The position numbers and the translations under genes are program-made. Under the pieces are notes generated by a model that saw only the letters and a program-made list of their open reading frames with translations, was not told where the DNA came from and did not search any database. A stretch of 46,457 bases of DNA from Marine Group II euryarchaeote MED-G35 (GTDB taxonomy: Archaea; Thermoplasmatota; Poseidoniia; Poseidoniales; Thalassarchaeaceae): the NCBI GenBank assembly GCA_002457155.1, contig NTJS01000011.1, positions 1-46,457 of the forward strand, given 5' to 3'. Of this stretch, positions 32 through 13,961 are shown piece after piece. Each line of letters opens with the position of its first letter. Position 1 is the stretch's first letter.

Positions 32-1636
32 TTGGAAGAATCGATAGTCGGCAAAAGCGGCAACCCATGGATAAACCACGAGAACGAAAGAGCGGTCTCT
101 TCCTTTGTATTGGGGCTATCCATAACTATGGCGTTCGCCTTCTCAATGGAGTCTTGGAGAGCAGCAACAATGGAGCTCAACCCGGTAATGGGGCAGTCTA
201 CCGGCGATGCCGACCTACTGGCTATCTTGTACTTCCTGCTAGCTGCATTCACCTACTGGGTCACCATTTCCTCGATGGTGAAACTAACTTGGGTCAAGTC
301 CACATCGACTGCTCTTCTCGGAATCTCGACTGCGTGGATAATATTCATCGTCTCCACATTCCTGATCCACTGGTCGCTCATAGAGGCGGACTGGGTCGTG
401 GTCTGGGCGAACAGAGATCTGGTGATGATGGGACAGCTGATGAAGGAGCAGATGACCCAGTCCCCAGGATCACACGTCTGCATAAATGAGTCGAACTGCT
501 ACGGCATTAACCAGAACTTCCGACTTTGGTGGTCACTTTACCTGACCTTCGGGATTCTGGGTGGCGCTTATGGGGCAAGCGGGGAGAAGCCCGGGAAATT
601 CCTGGTCCCATTCTTGGCCATCATGGGACTAGTGACTCTGATAGCCCTCAATCCGACCGAGGTCAGTTACAAGACTGACACTGTCGGGGTCAAGCTGTCA
701 ATCGCAACACTCTGGGCCCTCGTGGGATACGGCCTAGCGTACTGGTACTCGAAGAACAACGAGGAGTACAAGGTAAACCGACTGAGGTCATATCTGGCAG
801 TATCGGCCGTGGCCACGTTCTTCTTCGCAATCCTGATCATGGATCCACCCCAGTTCGTCAAAGACGGGGCAGAGGTACTTGGAGGGACTCCGGCCCAATC
901 TTTCTCAGAGGATATCATCGCAGGCGACAGAACCCCCTCGACCTGGGACAAGCTTGCCGGCAACGGAATAGAGGCATCCCAATGGGGCGGTCTGTTCGTG
1001 AACCTGATTATCGCCACCGCAGGATGCGTCCTAGGCTTCGGGATAGGGGTCGTCCTAGCCTTCGGGAGGCAGAGCGACCAGACATTCTTCAGCATCCCAT
1101 CCATCGCCGTGATAGAGCTGGTGAGATCAGGGCCACTGATCTGCTGGCTGTACTTCGCGGTGTTCATGATGCCCGACCTGATGGACCCATTCTACAACGC
1201 AGAGGACATAATCAGGATGCTCCTGATGTTCGGAATATTCGGTGGGTGTTACATCGCCGAGGTCCTCAGGGGCGGTCTGCAGGCCGTTGACAGCGGTCAG
1301 AAGGAGGCAGCAGCAGCACTGGGGCTATCGCCCTTCCAGACCAAGCTGCAGGTCGAACTCCCCAACGCGGTCAGGACCACCCTGCCCTCGATCATCAGCG
1401 TGTTCATCGGCCTCTGGAAGGACACCACCCTCCTCTTCATCGTCAACATTCTCGACTTCTTCAAGCTGGCAAAGGACCTGCCCAACTCAGATCTGAGGTT
1501 CCTCGGGGACTTCCTCGAGCCGCTCTATGTCACCGCAGTGGTGTTCTGGATTTTCGCATTCTACCTGTCTAGGGTCTCGATGAAGGTCGAGAAGAACCTT
1601 GGGCTCGTAAGAGAAGGAGGAGGAGAAGCTGCATGA
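32..1636 (+). CDS. Polar amino-acid ABC transporter permease with extra N-terminal membrane helices (possibly 5' partial)
   Basis: Inner-membrane permease of the His/Glu/Gln/Arg ABC importer class. The last ~215 residues form the BPD_transp_1 domain, with the cytoplasmic EAA loop starting near E425 (EAAAALG...LPNA) that docks on the ATPase. Before it lie about seven further hydrophobic segments (roughly residues 22-44, 61-83, 88-115, 166-185, 190-207, 222-240, 250-268), resembling AapM/GltK-type permeases with extra helices. The next gene, an ATPase, overlaps by 4 nt (ATGA), so they are co-translated. The listed start is TTG at 32, but the frame is open to the window edge, so the true start may lie upstream. 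A partner permease may also lie to the left, outside the window. Confidence 0.85.
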
Positions 1637-2385
1637 GTGAAGAAAGCGATGAGATGATAATTGAAACAGAGGGAGTTAGGGTGAACTTCGGTGACTTCTG
1701 GGCACTGAAGGGAGTGGACATCAAGGTCAGGAAAGGCGAGATAATAGTCATCCTAGGGCCATCGGGTTCCGGGAAGTCCACATTCATAAGGACCCTCAAC
1801 CGACTCCAGCCCCACAGCGGTGGGACGATCAAGATCGATGGTATTACCGTCGATGAGGACACAACGGTATCCGACCTGAAGTACGTTCGCTCGGAGATCG
1901 GGTTCGTATTCCAGCAGTTCAACCTCTTCCCCCACCTCACAATAATGGAGAACATCACGCTAGCCCCAATGAAGGTAAAGAGAACGCCAAAGAGGGAGGC
2001 CGAGGCGAGGGCCATGGAGCTGCTGGAGAGGGTAGGAATCCCCGAGCAGGCATACAAGTACCCAAGCGGCCTTTCAGGTGGGCAGCAGCAGAGGGTGGCC
2101 ATTGCCAGGGCCCTAGCCATGGATCCGAAGATCATGCTCTTCGACGAGCCGACCTCGGCTCTCGACCCGGAGATGATCAAGGAGGTCCTCGAGGTCATGA
2201 TAGACCTGGCGAAGCGAGACATCACGATGATCGTGGTCACTCACGAGATGGGTTTCGCCAAGGAGGTCGCCGACAGGTGCATCCTCTTCGACGAGGGGCA
2301 TCTGATAGAGGAGAACACTCCCGAGGAGTTCTTCTCGAAGCCGAAGCACGATAGGACCAAGCTGTTCCTAGAGCAGATCCTCTAG
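1633..2385 (+). CDS. glnQ: Polar amino-acid ABC transporter ATP-binding protein (GlnQ-like)
   Basis: Cytoplasmic ATPase that powers the permease encoded just upstream. All ABC motifs are present: Walker [10 protein letters not shown] at residues 42-50, signature LSGGQ at 147-151 and Walker B ending in D171-E172 (FDEPTSALD), followed by the H-loop region VTHEMGFA. The length of 250 residues is normal for GlnQ/HisP proteins. The ATG sits inside the stop region of the permease gene (ATGA overlap). The stop codon overlaps the stop of the opposing NAD-kinase-like gene within the self-complementary CTAG at 2382-2385. The family assignment is firm, but the transported amino acid cannot be read from the sequence. 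Confidence 0.95.
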
Positions 2386-4533: not shown

Positions 4534-7500
4534 ATGAACAGGAAGCCTATCACACTCGTGATGTGCATGCTAATGGTCGTCTCAACGACGCCCATATCTA
4601 ACGCAGAGGGACAGGAAGAGTCCTCGATATGGGGGATTACGTACGACTGGTCCCACTTCGAGGGAGATGCATTCAACATGACCGGGGTCGATGTGAATGA
4701 ACTGAACATGGACCTAGAGGCAGCCGCATCATACGCAGGCTTCGACCTCGATTACGACCAGGTCCTGAGCGGCACGACCCAGATGTTCGTCGAGTCATGG
4801 GACGAGGCCGGGCCCTTCACTGTGGTCACCGATGACGGGACCCCGCACCAGGTCAGCAAGCGCATCACAGAGCTGACGATCAGGCACGGGAGCATGGCCG
4901 ATACCGGGATGGCGACGAACTGGTCGGATGGCGACGAGAAGATCGAGGCGTGGGTCAACGCATACCAGGACTACCTCCTGGTGCTGAATGCGAATTACGT
5001 CGAGTACGTGGACGAGAACATGTTCGTCTACGGTGCGGAAATACTGCTCGACTCCGTGTTCTCGGTCAGCATGGGGTTCGAGGCCGAGCTGGGCGTCACA
5101 GCAGCCAACGAGGCCATCTCACCAGACATCTCGACGAACGTGCAACTCTCCTTCGAGATCCCAAACCTGGAAGCTACCTGGACCCCATACGATGCTGTCG
5201 ACTACCACTTCGTGATGGGTTCCGCACCGTCCCAAGACTCAGGCCCAGCTACCGATCCAAGTGACGACTGGCACCCATACACATACTGCTCAAGCGAAGA
5301 ATTCCAGACATACCAGATGTGCAATGAGGCCGAGTTCGAGCAGGGCGATCTCAGTTTCATACAGCACCACGACACCGACTCCGGTGAACTGCAGGGGAGC
5401 TTCTCCAGCATCACCGGTTACTCGATGGAGGTTTCCGCAGCGGGCATCCCCACCGAGGAGTTCGACGTGGACATCGACGTGTTCAACGTGGCACTCTCGG
5501 ACTCCATCTCCGACCAGGGCGTAATCTACGGCGAGATGGACGTGAGCTCATACGCCCTATGGGGGCACAACTGCCCACCCATCTCCAACACCGAGTTCGT
5601 GACCGTGGAAGGCATCGAATACCAGGCCCAGTGCGGCATGGTCCTCCCGGTCCCATGGGCAATGGCGCATATGATGGGGCACTCGATGTCACAGGCTCTT
5701 GAGAGCGGCGTACAGGAGCTCGGCGACGCGGCCTTCGAGCAGGTCGAGGAGTGGGTCGAGGAAGCCGGCCTCGAAGGCGGCGACGATGACTATTACGACA
5801 ACCCCCCTGACTTCGTCTGCGACAGCGGCGAGACAATCCCCAGGTACTGGTTCAACGACGGGTACCCTGACTGCTACGACGGCTCCGACGAGATCACCTC
5901 TAGCGAGGACGATGCATTATACTACGAGTGGCACGAGGAGCTGCCCACCGATTTCCCCACCCCGACGGAGGGCAGCTCGCTGCACCACGTCCTGTCGACC
6001 GGCGAGCTTACCTACTGCACCGACCCCTACTACCCGCCGTTCGAGTCGTACGACGATGAAGTCACGCTGGTCGGTTTCGACGTGGATGTCGCAGATTATC
6101 TGGCATCCGCCCTAACCGCCGAGTACGGGACCCCAGTCCAATTCGTGCCGGTCGAGTCCGGTTGGGACCCCATCATCCCCAACCTGAATGGCGGCGAGAT
6201 GTGCGACGCCATCATCTCGGCCATGACCAAGACACCCGAGCGTGACTATGCCGTCGACTTCACGCGTGGCTACTACACGTCGAGCCAGGGCGTCATAGGC
6301 GGCCCCGGATCCCCATCCATCAACGATGTCTACGAGCTCAACGATCCTGGATTCACCATTGGGGTACAGCACCAGACTATCCCCCAATGGTTTGCTGAAG
6401 AAAACCTTCCAGAGGCAACGGTAAATGTGTACGATGACTACACAGCAGTCATCGAAGCCCTGGACAACGGTGAAGTGATGTACGCATTGGGGCACACATC
6501 CGAGCTATCGATGAATGGCACGATAATGACCACATTCTCCGAGGAGAATCTCGGAATAGCCCTACGAGAGGGCAACAACGAGCTTCTGACAGCGCTTGAC
6601 GTAGGGATCACGAACCTAGTTCAATCCGAGGCGTACGGTAGCATTTTCTCGACTTGGCTCGAAGGTGAGCCACATGTGATCAATGACTGGTCGCCCGACT
6701 GGGACTTCGGCTCGCAGGAGTACTACGGGGAGGGTACCAGCGACAGCAGTGGCAATGGCTTCACCTGCCTACACGATACATGGCAGACCATCCCCTCATC
6801 CGGAGTGGGTGACGGGTACCCGGACTGCTACGACGGCACCGACGAGGAGATGCAACCCCAGGTCTGGTCATGTGCGGTGGATGTTAGACTCGACTCAATC
6901 GAACATGACTTCGGTAGTGGAATTGGAGCTAACCACCCGTTGAACAGCTGGCAAGCTTTCGATGAAAAAATAGATGATCACCCGGGCTTCCCTGAATGGT
7001 GCGGTACCGAAGTAGGAGTGCTGGAGATCGGAGAAACGCAGCCAAACCTGCCTCCTGCAGATGACATTTACGGGTCTTGGTACGGCGATGATAACTATGA
7101 CCCGTATGACGTAGGGATACGCGCAAGGAACGCAACGCACTTTCACGAGCTGTGGGCCGGGGGCGAAGGCAATCAGCATCAGGATTGCGAGAACTATGGG
7201 GGGTCATGGTCCGCAGAGTACAATTCATGCGCTTTTCAAGCGAGCCCGGACTATGCCATCGACGGTGAACTTATCTGGGGCGAATACGGATGGACTAGGT
7301 ACCATTGGTCCGGCGACTACCTGTACCTAGCGATACCTGCCACGGTCGACACCCCCCCCGATATCGTCTGGAATGGTATGGGGCCTCGGGTGACTGACTT
7401 CATCTGCGACCAGGACGACCGGTGGGAGCGTGTCCAGGAGTGGCAGGTCGGAGACGGCATCGAGGACTGCTCCAACGGCGAAGACGAGAATCCAGATGCA

Positions 7501-8142
7501 TCCACAGGGGGGACCACAGGCCCCGCAGGGTCCACCGACCTCGATATGATGTTCGAGGCGCTCGAGGCATCGAACCTCGAGAAGACCATGGAGGCATTCT
7601 CGGAGAGGCTGGAGGTTCTGCTGCAGGACAACGTCCCCGAGGAGCCCAAGTACGATCTCGAGGATCTCTGCGCGACCATGCTCTGGGATCCCAGCGACGT
7701 CAGGGTTCTGGGAGTCGCACTGGTCCTGGAGGGAGGCCTTCTCTTCGGACCGCAGATCAAGGATTCGATACCCCATCCCACGACCACCATCAACGTGGAG
7801 TTCCTATCGGGACAGGCGGCCAGAGACGCGAAGTCCGGCATCGCCCCCCGGGTTTCTCTGGATGAAATGGCGCCAGCCTCCAAGCACAACTTGGCCGAGC
7901 TCTATGAGATTCTGGGGCCGAAGTACCTCCCGAACCTGGACACCACGGACAGCGATGGGGATGGGACGATGGACTTCTTCGACACGGACGACGACAACGA
8001 CGGAGTGCCGGACTGGGAAGACTCAGAGCCAACTTCGGTCGAGGCCGAAGCCGAATCATCCAGCCTACCTGCTCATGGCTTGGTGGCATCGCTCTCGGTA
8101 ATCGCCGCGGCAGCCATGCTCATCCCTAGAAGGGATGACTAG
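4534..8142 (+). CDS. Large surface-anchored protein with amino-acid-type substrate-binding domain and LDLa-like modules
   Basis: A 1202-residue exported protein. An N-terminal signal peptide (hydrophobic to about residue 24, ending SNA) is followed by ~400 residues of unknown fold. An LDL-receptor-A-like module lies at ~427-453 (C429, C447, DGSDE). A family-3 extracellular solute-binding domain follows at ~488-711, containing the PPFE and GFDVDVA segments typical of amino-acid binding proteins. Two more LDLa-like modules lie at ~743-771 (C745, C765) and ~956-986 (C958, C979). A helical stretch and an Asp-rich thrombospondin-3-like calcium repeat (~1139-1166) precede a C-terminal hydrophobic segment ending in R-R-D-D. 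This domain probably supplies ligand to the permease/ATPase encoded at 32-2385. GC3 falls sharply in parts of the gene. Confidence 0.85.
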   Translation: MNRKPITLVMCMLMVVSTTPISNAEGQEESSIWGITYDWSHFEGDAFNMTGVDVNELNMDLEAAASYAGFDLDYDQVLSGTTQMFVESWDEAGPFTVVTDDGTPHQVSKRITELTIRHGSMADTGMATNWSDGDEKIEAWVNAYQDYLLVLNANYVEYVDENMFVYGAEILLDSVFSVSMGFEAELGVTAANEAISPDISTNVQLSFEIPNLEATWTPYDAVDYHFVMGSAPSQDSGPATDPSDDWHPYTYCSSEEFQTYQMCNEAEFEQGDLSFIQHHDTDSGELQGSFSSITGYSMEVSAAGIPTEEFDVDIDVFNVALSDSISDQGVIYGEMDVSSYALWGHNCPPISNTEFVTVEGIEYQAQCGMVLPVPWAMAHMMGHSMSQALESGVQELGDAAFEQVEEWVEEAGLEGGDDDYYDNPPDFVCDSGETIPRYWFNDGYPDCYDGSDEITSSEDDALYYEWHEELPTDFPTPTEGSSLHHVLSTGELTYCTDPYYPPFESYDDEVTLVGFDVDVADYLASALTAEYGTPVQFVPVESGWDPIIPNLNGGEMCDAIISAMTKTPERDYAVDFTRGYYTSSQGVIGGPGSPSINDVYELNDPGFTIGVQHQTIPQWFAEENLPEATVNVYDDYTAVIEALDNGEVMYALGHTSELSMNGTIMTTFSEENLGIALREGNNELLTALDVGITNLVQSEAYGSIFSTWLEGEPHVINDWSPDWDFGSQEYYGEGTSDSSGNGFTCLHDTWQTIPSSGVGDGYPDCYDGTDEEMQPQVWSCAVDVRLDSIEHDFGSGIGANHPLNSWQAFDEKIDDHPGFPEWCGTEVGVLEIGETQPNLPPADDIYGSWYGDDNYDPYDVGIRARNATHFHELWAGGEGNQHQDCENYGGSWSAEYNSCAFQASPDYAIDGELIWGEYGWTRYHWSGDYLYLAIPATVDTPPDIVWNGMGPRVTDFICDQDDRWERVQEWQVGDGIEDCSNGEDENPDASTGGTTGPAGSTDLDMMFEALEASNLEKTMEAFSERLEVLLQDNVPEEPKYDLEDLCATMLWDPSDVRVLGVALVLEGGLLFGPQIKDSIPHPTTTINVEFLSGQAARDAKSGIAPRVSLDEMAPASKHNLAELYEILGPKYLPNLDTTDSDGDGTMDFFDTDDDNDGVPDWEDSEPTSVEAEAESSSLPAHGLVASLSVIAAAAMLIPRRDD
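5812..5892 (+). other. LDLa-like module 1 coding segment
   Basis: Encodes residues ~427-453 of the surface protein, with the pattern F-x-C ... I-P ... D-G-x-x-D-C-x-D-G-S-D-E. It aligns by eye to the second-to-fifth cysteine span and calcium site of LDL receptor class A repeats. The other four cysteines are missing. Confidence 0.6.
6760..6846 (+). other. LDLa-like module 2 coding segment
   Basis: Encodes residues ~743-771. It has the same pattern as module 1, with C745, I-P, D-G-Y-P-D-C765 and an acidic D-G-T-D-E-E end. It follows the solute-binding domain directly. Confidence 0.6.
7399..7491 (+). other. LDLa-like module 3 coding segment
   Basis: Encodes residues ~956-986, with C958 and C979 and the acidic end S-N-G-E-D-E. 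It is more divergent: I-P is replaced by R-V, but the D-G-I-E-D-C and acidic calcium-type ending remain. Confidence 0.5.
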
Positions 8143-8153
8143 GTCCCGTCACC

Positions 8154-9026
8154 ATGGCAGTCGGACGCAAGGTGGCCCTCGGGCTCGCCGCGTTGCTCGT
8201 CATGGTGGCATGGTCCAGCGCTTGGTTCGAGATAACGGCCACTGGGACGTACATCGAGGGCCTTGATAGGGAGCCGACCATCAAGACGCAGTACTCCATT
8301 GACAATGATGAGCAGACCTTCGAGATATCGATAGAGAACGCGACTCCCTTGATACTCTACTGGATGCAGAGGGAAGACATCACACAAGATGGAGGGCCTT
8401 CTGGGGATTCCTCCGATGGGCCCTCTGACGAAGCACAGGAAGAGGCCGAAAAAGAGCAGTCCGATCCCTGCAATGGCGAGTGCATGGGGCTGGCCAGGAC
8501 TTCCCTAGCGCTCCTGATGGCAACCTTCGTCGCCACCCTCGCCGTCTCGGCACAAAGGCCCAGCAGGTGGGCCGATGCTGCAGCAGGGATGTCATGGCTG
8601 GTCTGCCTCGCTCTGATAGTCTTTGGAGTCCCCATGGCAGCCGCAGCCGACTTCGGAATCCTCGGCTCTGACGAGGGTGCCGAACCCGGGTCATCAACAG
8701 GGGGATTCGACTCGGAGACGGATGGCTCGGTCTCCGTCGATCAGTTCGCCCACTTCTCCTCCAGAACCGGCAATGGCTTATCCTCGACAGGTCTGGTATT
8801 CACTTACGACTCGACTGGTTTCGATCTGGGACTGCTGGATGAGGATGACAGGCAAGCAGTCATCGACTCGGCACCAAGCGAAGGCCAACCGGGCTACGAG
8901 TCACTGATAGGTTTCCATGGCGAGTTGGTGGCCGGTCCCGGCCCCATCTTCTCATGGTGGTTCTTGATTCTCCCTCTCTATGCATACTCGCTTCGAATAG
9001 GGAAGAAGTCAGACGAGGAAGAGTGA
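8154..9026 (+). CDS. Membrane protein of unknown function
   Basis: Unrecognised 290-residue protein. It has a hydrophobic N-terminal segment (residues ~7-25), a polar acidic region with a Gly/Ser/Glu-rich linker, two adjacent membrane segments around residues 117-165, a second extracytoplasmic region and a final membrane helix near the C-terminus, followed by a charged K-K-S-D-E-E-E tail. The start ATG lies only 11 nt after the large surface-protein gene, so the two are probably co-transcribed. It may be a membrane partner or assembly factor of that protein, but nothing in the sequence proves it. Confidence 0.75.
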   Translation: MAVGRKVALGLAALLVMVAWSSAWFEITATGTYIEGLDREPTIKTQYSIDNDEQTFEISIENATPLILYWMQREDITQDGGPSGDSSDGPSDEAQEEAEKEQSDPCNGECMGLARTSLALLMATFVATLAVSAQRPSRWADAAAGMSWLVCLALIVFGVPMAAAADFGILGSDEGAEPGSSTGGFDSETDGSVSVDQFAHFSSRTGNGLSSTGLVFTYDSTGFDLGLLDEDDRQAVIDSAPSEGQPGYESLIGFHGELVAGPGPIFSWWFLILPLYAYSLRIGKKSDEEE

Positions 9027-12458: not shown

Positions 12459-13961
12459 TTGGTTCGATTTTCAGACTTAGGGGTCGAGCCAGTTTTGGTC
12501 GATGTTTTGCGAGAAGAGGGCATAGTGGAGCCCTTCGAGGTCCAACGGGAGGCGATTCCCGATGCAATGCTCGGAAGGGACGTTTGCTGTAGGGCCCCGA
12601 CAGGATCGGGGAAGACGCTGGCCTTCGGGCTGCCACTGATCTCCCGGACCAAGGAGGCCAAGTCGAAGAGGCCGACCTCATTGATACTGACTCCAACTCG
12701 GGAGCTGGCGGAGCAGATCCGCAAGGTTCTGCAGCCTCTAGCCAGGACATCTGGGCTAGGTGTCCTCTCTGTTTATGGCGGGACCCCATACAAGGGGCAA
12801 CTCAGGAGTCTGAAACAGGGAGTCGAGGTTCTCGTGGCATGCCCAGGACGCTTGATCGACCTTCTTGACAGGAACGCGCTCCGCTTGGATGACGTCGGCA
12901 TCGTGGTCCTAGACGAGGCCGACAGGATGGCTGACATGGGATTCATGGAACCAGTCTGCTCGATACTAGACAAGTGCAGCCCAGACAGGCAGACGATACT
13001 CTTCAGCGCCACTCTAGACGACGATGTTGCTGAGATAGTCTCGGCATACCAGACTGACCCAGCTAGGATAGGGATAGGCCCAGAGGAGATTAGCATGGAC
13101 AGCATGCAGCACCTATTCTGGAAGGTCAACTCCAGGGGGAAGGCCGATCTCTCGGCCTACATCACCGAGAAGTGCGGACGCAGCATCATCTTCTGCCGAA
13201 CTAGGGCCGGAGTTAATCGCCTAGGGGACGAGATGAGCGAGATAGGGACTTCATTCACCACTCTACATGGGGGGATGAACCAGAAGCAGAGAGACAGGTC
13301 GATGCAGAAGTTCAGCGCCGGCCGATCCCGGGTTCTGATAGCTACGGACGTCGCTTCACGTGGAATAGACGTTACAGACGTCAACTGCGTAATCCACTTC
13401 GACCCACCGGACGACGGCAAGGCGTACAAGCACCGAAGCGGAAGAACAGCGAGGGCTGGTTCGACTGGCACCGTGGTCTCCCTTGTCCAGAGGTCCCAGA
13501 ACAGAAAGTACAAGAGGATCCAGCAAGATGTTGGAATCAAGTGCAGATTCACCGAGCCCGACGTCGATATCCTCGAGGAGAGGGAGTTCGTCATGGCACC
13601 CCCTGTGAAATTCAGGGGCGGCAGCAATTCAAGGGGGCCGAAGAACAACAAGAGGGCCCGAAGGTCTAGGAAGAGTAACCAATCCAGGTCCTCTAACCAA
13701 GGCGGTAACAGTAACGGCCGCCGAAACGGCCACCGAAACGGCCACCGAAACGGCCACCGAAACGGCCACCGAAACGGCCACCGAAACGGCCACCGAAACG
13801 CCAACAGTGACGGCAACAGTGACGGCAACAGTAACGGTAACAGTAACGGCCACCGAAACGGTCGTCGCAAGGGCAAGAACAATGGCAACTCTCCAGTCAA
13901 GTACAAGGACAAGCGCAAGGGAAGGAGAGGACCCCCAAAGAAGGCCCAACCCCGGTCATAG
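12459..13961 (+). CDS. DEAD-box RNA helicase with Gly-His-Arg-Asn repeat tail
   Basis: ATP-dependent RNA helicase of 500 residues. Motif I is A-P-T-G-S-G-K-T (residues 46-53), motif II is D152-E-A-D155, motif III is S183-A-T185 and motif VI starts at H325 (H-R-S-G-R-T-A-R-A-G). The two RecA domains end near residue 385. The C-terminal ~115 residues are basic and low complexity, including six exact G-H-R-N copies and N-S-D/N-S-N units, probably disordered and RNA-binding like the basic tails of RhlE/DeaD proteins. The start codon is TTG with a clear SD. Likely roles are ribosome assembly or RNA unwinding. Confidence 0.93.
   Translation: MVRFSDLGVEPVLVDVLREEGIVEPFEVQREAIPDAMLGRDVCCRAPTGSGKTLAFGLPLISRTKEAKSKRPTSLILTPTRELAEQIRKVLQPLARTSGLGVLSVYGGTPYKGQLRSLKQGVEVLVACPGRLIDLLDRNALRLDDVGIVVLDEADRMADMGFMEPVCSILDKCSPDRQTILFSATLDDDVAEIVSAYQTDPARIGIGPEEISMDSMQHLFWKVNSRGKADLSAYITEKCGRSIIFCRTRAGVNRLGDEMSEIGTSFTTLHGGMNQKQRDRSMQKFSAGRSRVLIATDVASRGIDVTDVNCVIHFDPPDDGKAYKHRSGRTARAGSTGTVVSLVQRSQNRKYKRIQQDVGIKCRFTEPDVDILEEREFVMAPPVKFRGGSNSRGPKNNKRARRSRKSNQSRSSNQGGNSNGRRNGHRNGHRNGHRNGHRNGHRNGHRNANSDGNSDGNSNGNSNGHRNGRRKGKNNGNSPVKYKDKRKGRRGPPKKAQPRS
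13716..13863 (+). repeat. 12-bp in-frame tandem repeat in the helicase tail
   Basis: Six identical copies of GGCCACCGAAAC run from 13728 to 13799. A diverged copy precedes them (13716-13727, Arg replacing His), and N-S-D/N-S-N-type 12-bp units plus one more exact copy follow. The unit keeps frame, so copy-number change would lengthen or shorten the tail without a frameshift. Confidence 0.9.

Follow-up and report, generated by a model that had tools for sequence, protein, structure and literature searches.

The surface protein P0001 of Marine Group II euryarchaeote MED-G35 (order Poseidoniales), encoded in the 46,457-nucleotide stretch of DNA analyzed here (the window), carries modules of the LDL-receptor-A (LDLa) type that keep only two of the six cysteines of that domain, and this reduced form is the norm across the whole clade. 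The modules sit at domain-insertion joints: a cassette composed of a solute-binding domain between two modules is present or absent in close relatives, and is found relocated, at the module ends. Based on sequence comparison and structure prediction, these reduced LDLa relatives are in our view probably calcium-folded spacers with a single disulfide that double as recombination joints. An earlier note on this DNA had read the modules as single-disulfide LDLa domains, and that reading is supported. Here, the evidence is laid out for the protein, for its relatives in archaea and bacteria, and for the joints.

Architecture of the Surface Protein

The source genome comprises 1.2 Mb and is 68% complete. 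From the N-terminus, P0001 consists of an N-terminal domain, module 1, an amino-acid-type solute-binding domain (SBP_bac_3), module 2, a middle domain and module 3, followed by a C-terminal domain, a TSP3-like acidic tail and a hydrophobic segment which, judged by eye, is probably a membrane anchor (Table 1). The N-terminal domain could not be assigned a confident fold, the best Foldseek probability among the 50 PDB matches listed being 0.15; its model has very long beta strands, and homologs of this domain occur in both families of the order. The SBP_bac_3 domain scored 87.5 bits against a Pfam cut-off of 26.4, and the same domain was matched by NCBIfam TIGR01096 at E 4.5e-32, under the own cut-off of TIGR01096. 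Residues 727-1202 are 46% identical (blastp) to a homolog in genome G086, which belongs to the same genus. The acidic tail gave a weak match to NCBIfam NF047638 over residues 1132-1174 (E 8.4e-4, under cut-off).

Table 1. Positions in the window of P0001, its parts and the neighboring genes
Feature	Position	Strand	Basis
ABC permease, polar amino acid type	32..1636	+	PF00528; TIGR01726 HEQRo_perm_3TM
ABC transporter ATPase	1633..2385	+	PF00005 E 3.2e-38
Surface protein P0001, 1202 aa	4534..8142	+	ORF listing, Pfam; signal peptide and anchor by eye
N-terminal domain, aa 25-425, beta-rich	4606..5808	+	AlphaFold mean pLDDT 76 (aa 25-465)
LDLa-like module 1, aa 427-453	5812..5892	+	PF00057 34.8 bits (isolated module, hmmscan); AlphaFold model
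SBP_bac_3, amino-acid-type solute-binding domain, aa 492-710	6007..6663	+	PF00497 E 8.7e-25
LDLa-like module 2, aa 743-771	6760..6846	+	25.5 bits (Asn-type profile); PF00057 20.2 bits
Middle domain, aa 780-955	6871..7398	+	resembles tail half of G086 homolog
Probable LDLa-like module 3, aa 956-985	7399..7488	+	8.4 bits vs shuffle maximum 7.3
TSP3-like DxDxDG acidic repeat, aa 1137-1165	7942..8028	+	weak NCBIfam match; by eye
C-terminal hydrophobic segment, then RRDD	8062..8139	+	by eye from translation
Conserved downstream neighbor of P0001, function unassigned	8154..9026	+	tblastn

Sequence and Predicted Fold of the Modules

The earlier note had claimed three reduced LDLa-like modules in P0001 that keep F-x-C, D-G-x-x-D-C, the acidic positions and usually I-P, with only two of the six cysteines, and all of this was found: I-P occurs in modules 1 and 2 but not in module 3, and the cysteines are C429 and C447 in module 1, C745 and C765 in module 2, and C958 and C979 in module 3. 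The calcium-ligand positions are D442, D446, D452 and E453 in module 1, D760, D764, D770 and E771 in module 2, and D974, D978, D984 and E985 in module 3, giving D/D/D/E in three of three window modules.

The Pfam profile that the note had pointed to, PF00057 (Ldl_recept_a), scores P0001 at 34.9 bits against a curated cut-off of 24.1, and module 1 alone at 34.8 bits. Taken module by module, module 1 is the one that lies over the PF00057 cut-off. In the whole-genome search with this profile, module 1 was matched at E 1.1e-7 and module 2 at E 1.2e-3 (20.2 bits, under cut-off), and module 3 was absent from the matches at E ≤ 10. The Asn-type profile, made of 101 other modules with no P0001 module included, gave 48.6, 25.5 and 8.4 bits for modules 1, 2 and 3, the last over profile columns 5-27 only; the best of 5000 shuffles of P0001 reached 7.3 bits. 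The assignment of modules 1 and 2 as LDLa-like can be regarded as secure. Module 3 is near noise and probably LDLa-like, in view of its weak score, the core DGIEDCSNGEDE and a location on a domain boundary. The final 36 bases of modules 1 (5857-5892) and 2 (6811-6846) are identical at 34 of 36 positions and the first halves differ; the shared 3' bases look as if they had been recently exchanged or copied.

In structure prediction, module 1 adopted the LDLa fold. The AlphaFold model (39 aa) has a mean pLDDT of 86, with residues 11-30 at 93-94, and a pTM of 0.52, and 50 of the 50 Foldseek matches listed for it were LDLa-bearing proteins, among them CD320 and NRAP-1, which we take to be LDLa bearers. 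The best E was 4.2e-3, no match of module 1 being found at E 0.001 or better, and the rmsd was 1.1 Å on 1ajj, 1.0 Å on 2kri and 0.7 Å on 2fcw over 29-30 superposition columns (30 for 1ajj). VIA-align, which covered module 1 only, placed model residues 3-37 on 6-40 of 1ajj (35 aligned, gapless, Z 4.8, rmsd 2.5), with its best result on 2kri (Z 5.2). The Foldseek E above 0.001 and the VIA-align Z of 5.2 or less reflect the tiny size of the domain. AlphaFold may itself recall the LDLa fold from related sequences.

On 1ajj, model residues C9 and C27 fall at residues 12 and 30, and D22, D26, D32 and E33 at 25, 29, 35 and 36. In that structure (LDLR module 5) we take C12 and C30 to be C2 and C5, and D25, D29, D35 and E36 to be the calcium side chains. 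By this gapless register of the model the retained pair would be C2 and C5, as proposed. Profile A1, made of 78 modules, is invariant at C9, C27, D32 and E33 and nearly invariant at columns including D22 and D26; we presume, from the ligand list, that C9 and C27 are C2 and C5 and that D22, D26, D32 and E33 are the calcium side chains. Against the PDB, A1 found LRP2, VLDLR and LDLR chains (best E 1.7e-113, for a many-repeat chain) as well as glucosidase II beta (best E 9e-17). The standard LDLa pairing given in PMC5026343, CI-CIII, CII-CV and CIV-CVI, agrees with the pairing that the earlier note had assumed.

LDLa membership was judged by four features. The PF00057 cut-off is exceeded by P0001, the fold is that of LDLa in the predicted model of module 1, and the acidic calcium-cage residues are present in all three window modules; six cysteines in three bonds were not found, each window module having only C2 and C5. 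The P0001 modules are thus LDLa by profile and predicted fold, and are a variant of LDLa because they fail its six-Cys definition.

The Reduced Form Across Archaea

Of the 145 genomes examined from the order, 96 matched PF00057 at E ≤ 1e-3 (86 over cut-off), and none of 14 control genomes did. Among the 389 genomes of the phylum, 84 matched at E ≤ 1e-4, 83 belonging to the order and 1 to the same class. To score cysteine content, a motif with C2 to C6 unconstrained was searched in archaeal loci outside the Cys-dependent DNA pattern: C2 and C5 were present in 64 of 64 motif cores, C3 or C4 in 0 of 64, and a Cys in the C6 window in 3. These loci came from PF00057 matches, for which Cys itself adds to the score, or from similarity to P0001. 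The two-cysteine pattern is hence conserved in relatives, as the earlier note would have it.

Among pattern-chosen archaeal loci, both cysteines were found in 167 of 168 cores, the exception being L077, with its Cys farther upstream; the scan of genome contigs, a sample of at least 114 stretches, needed a Cys at C5 and N, S, Y or C at C4. In the profile alignment of 319 archaeal modules, C3 or C4 was present in 0, C5 in 318 and C2 in 292, counts whose seed profile favors C2 and C5, the Cys-neutral motif being the fairer test. The alignment begins later in the 27 modules without an aligned C2, of which 23 have a nearby Cys and 4 do not. Counts that need complete modules cover 263 of the 319 archaeal ones and 116 of the 166 bacterial ones, the rest being without complete ends or flanks; a C6-window Cys without C4 was seen in 8 of the 263. 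The D/D/D/E positions are occupied in 300, 303, 306 and 303 of the 319 modules (94-96%), calcium ligands and Cys being what the profiles also select for. The C3 position is mostly E, T or V and the C4 position mostly Asn, with Gly in window modules 2 and 3.

No six-Cys form was found in the 145 genomes of the order, where the PF00057 maximum was 39.4 bits; such forms are detectable, because bacterial six-Cys modules reach 53.3 bits with the same model. By sequence, the reduced form is clade-wide in the order Poseidoniales. Several relatives bear tandem modules. In the window's own genome, loci L182 (contig C2) and L183 (contig C5) are frames of 980 and 2240 aa, each with a pair of modules and DxDxDG repeats. 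When viral contigs were scanned with A1, none of the 23 pattern matches was confirmed, so that viral spread is not supported.

Bacterial Modules and the Loss of Bond Partners

The earlier note had held that both partners of a lost bond disappear together, and the bacterial modules bear this out fully for C4 and C6 and for the majority in the case of C1 and C3. The full set of six Cys is found in 39 of the 116 complete modules from bacteria; a further 41 have C2, C4, C5 and C6, 20 are without only C3 and 15 without only C1; the remaining one, L046, keeps C1, C2, C3 and C5, with C4 and C6 gone. Every one of the 116 has C4 and C6 either together (115) or not at all (1). For C1 and C3, 40 modules have the pair and 41 have neither cysteine, giving 81 concordant cases, and 35 have just one of the two; upstream Cys of neighboring repeats blur the C1 calls. 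Together with the archaeal form, the bacterial ones make up a graded series in which three, two or one disulfides are possible.

Five complete modules without C4 stood on the bacterial side at first, and four of them came from L116 and L118. These loci, titled Deltaproteobacteria AH-558-G13, were counted as archaeal, because by the genome set, where they show the same places and scores as genomes of the window's order, they belong to that order; the Deltaproteobacteria title looks wrong. The C4/C6 table reads 115/0/0/5 with L116 and L118 and 115/0/0/1 without them (Fisher p 0.009), p values being only a guide since modules of the same protein are not independent.

Four of the 166 bacterial modules have Asn at C4 (one in L046, two in L037 and one in L054); those of L037 and L054 are incomplete in the profile alignment and lie outside the 116. 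L037 (Crocinitomicaceae, Bacteroidota) has Asn at C4 and Cys at C3. L054 (a Bacteroidetes record) has Asn at C4 without a C3 Cys and looks close to the archaeal form, and the reduced form may therefore extend beyond the archaea. Among the 112 genomes in the phylum of G407, a Minicystis genome, 12 match at E ≤ 1e-5.

Nearest Known Systems

The archaeal modules resemble the LDLa modules of LDLR, VLDLR and LRP2 in the F-x-C hairpin, I-P, the D-G-x-x-D-C-x-D-G-S-D-E cage, the length, the predicted fold and the places of C2 and C5, but they are without C1, C3, C4 and C6 and belong to the archaeal cell surface, where P0001 has single copies amid large domains. The single-module PDB chain that scored best with window module 1 was VLDLR 8ua8_R (32.0 bits), and glucosidase II beta 8d43_B scored below it (25.2 bits); a typed consensus gave 30.8 bits with 8ua8_R.

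Glucosidase II beta shares the I-P..VND signature and Asn at C4, and its first module has Thr at the C3 position (TIPFDQVNDDYCDCKDGSDEP), as in archaeal modules. The archaeal module of L014, which was picked for its glucosidase II beta-like look, scored 25.5 bits with the first module of glucosidase II beta versus 20.1 bits with LDLR 1ldl_A. In contrast to the archaeal modules, those of glucosidase II beta carry an extra Cys (YCDC), found in 0 of 319 archaeal modules at that column. Module 1 falls outside the PRKCSH-like family (PF12999; 12.5 bits, E 0.13), and the G046 protein reached 31.3 bits against the cut-off of 34.9 (E 2.2e-7). The candidacy of glucosidase II beta as the closest eukaryotic relative is weakened, VLDLR being higher for both module 1 and the typed consensus.

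Bacterial LDLa modules (Myxococcota and others) belong to the same profile family and many are without C1 and C3, but C4 and C6 are kept in 115 of the 116 complete modules. Searches of the open-licence PMC literature for LDLa modules of archaea, including Marine Group II and Poseidoniales, brought up no such paper among those listed. In PMC6461757, thrombospondin genes in Poseidoniales are mentioned as adhesion proteins; the main text of that paper and that of PMC6336850 contain 0 occurrences of "LDL".

The Cassette, Its Joints and the Gene Neighborhood

The surface protein of G086 has one module and no SBP domain at the place where the window has module-SBP-module. In G046, which belongs to another genus, a module-SBP-module cassette 58% identical to that of the window lies at another place in the homolog, and G078, a genus mate of G046, has a single module at the position of the G046 cassette. 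Ahead of the module the proteins of G046 and G078 agree at 228 of 235 residues and beyond it at 266 of 280, and that of G046 has 305 extra residues there, namely the SBP domain and a module. In DNA, 87 of 90 bases are identical on either side. The single G078 module is identical to G046 module 1 at 74 of 81 bases and to G046 module 2 at 62 of 81, and the identity of the two genomes resumes within the DGSDE codons of the second G046 module. An insertion in G046 and a deletion in G078, either of them through recombination between modules, would account for this equally well. A match spanning module 1 through the SBP domain was found in 2 of 145 genomes, the window's and G046, and some match at E ≤ 1e-35 in 46 of 145; in G063, a linear SBP match begins past module 1. 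The idea of a joint is drawn from the two cassette cases.

SBP domains related to that of the window show a circular permutation, with the body (equivalent of aa 535-720) preceding the head (aa 488-532) in the same frame. Permuted SBP_bac_3 relatives were seen in 24 of the 24 genomes examined outside the two with the linear cassette, at loci L175 (the window's own genome, C1:52500-56500), L154-L174, L178 and L186. At L175, Peripla_BP_6/ANF_receptor matches follow the SBP domain, and a lipoprotein-like signal is seen by eye at the start.

The permease upstream of P0001 matched TIGR01726 (HEQRo_perm_3TM, NCBIfam) at 43.5 bits, over the cut-off of 42.2. The gene order in G086 is the same as in the window: permease (87% identity), ATPase (94%), NAD-kinase-like (80%), lipoprotein-like (42%), surface protein and downstream ORF (63%). 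The downstream neighbor adjoins the surface-protein gene in 7 of the 8 regions that have this gene, a contig end intervening in the eighth. G086 keeps the ABC genes though its surface protein is without an SBP domain, and no ABC permease was found near the surface-protein gene of G046; therefore, the link between the ABC genes and the SBP domain is only positional. Elsewhere in the window, the ORF at 12459-13961 is DEAD-box helicase-like by eye, with a C-terminal tail of repeated HRNG units.

A Probable Calcium-Folded Spacer and Its Alternatives

In the explanation that we favor, the module would keep the F-x-C hairpin, the acidic calcium cage and the C2-C5 pair and would have lost the C1-C3 and C4-C6 bonds. 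Calcium from sea water would bind in the cage and hold the fold, and the single C2-C5 bond would staple the hairpin to the cage. The calcium concentration of sea water is about 10 mM. In PMC4500599, the native form of LDLR LA4 is reported to be largely dominant at 10 mM Ca, which makes a less-stapled module plausible in sea water. The modules would serve as short, calcium-stiffened spacers that separate the larger extracellular domains of P0001 and would hold the amino-acid-type SBP domain in a surface protein whose gene lies close to those of an ABC permease and ATPase of amino-acid type. Nearly identical copies of the module recur at domain boundaries, and for that reason they may also act as joints for the recombinational gain and loss of domains.

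A more specific account for the Poseidoniales, which we consider rather unlikely, would make the one-disulfide LDLa a cut-and-paste joint used generally in surface proteins, whose repeated DGSDE codons recombine, with Asn in place of C4 marking an older LDLa branch. On this account, domains such as the amino-acid-type binding domain of P0001 would be inserted, moved or lost between modules, with a calcium-folded module staying as the linker on each side. That the Asn-for-C4 branch is common to glucosidase II beta, with the six-Cys animal modules arising beside it, is likewise a speculative proposal to which we give little weight.

Ligand capture in the manner of LDLR and LRP could instead be the main job of LDLa-like modules. 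A Trp before C4 in LDLa aids lysine binding, and in the archaeal modules the acidic cage and this Trp would line a pocket in which lysine-rich or cationic substrates, for example peptides, are caught to feed the adjoining solute-binding domain. Module 1 does have W439 two residues before C4, the same Trp occurs in 109 of 319 archaeal modules, and the tandem modules of several relatives would suit such a role; yet the Trp is missing from two thirds of the archaeal modules and from window module 2, and the modules of P0001 are single and placed between other domains, which leaves ligand capture improbable as the main function. In module 3, a Trp lies, by eye, one residue off the expected place.

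A calcium loop of unrelated origin, acidic and of the TSP3, dockerin, MopE-like or EF-hand-like kind, might have converged on an LDLa look, the motif being short and DxDxDG acidic repeats being found in the same proteins. Against this, hmmscan of module 1 at E ≤ 10 gives PF00057, LDLRAD1_C and PRKCSH-like only, the similarity of module 1 is gapless from F-x-C to SDE, and the Foldseek matches listed are LDLa-bearing throughout; with LDLa-type families alone in the hmmscan result, a convergent TSP3, EF-hand or MopE loop is disfavored and very improbable. A lone Cys pair on a surface protein could also be redox active or bind a metal instead of forming a structural disulfide, but the cysteines stand at the C2 and C5 places of LDLa and are invariant together, and we give such a site hardly any probability.

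If the reading of the modules as calcium-folded, single-disulfide spacers and joints is true, this natural one-bond form would show the minimum of bonds and ligands that the LDLa fold needs and would offer a small scaffold for design, and LDLa modules would be present on the surface of widespread marine archaea. The SBP cassette, present in one and absent from another of two close relatives, would be a clear-cut example of how domains are shuffled at a repeated module.
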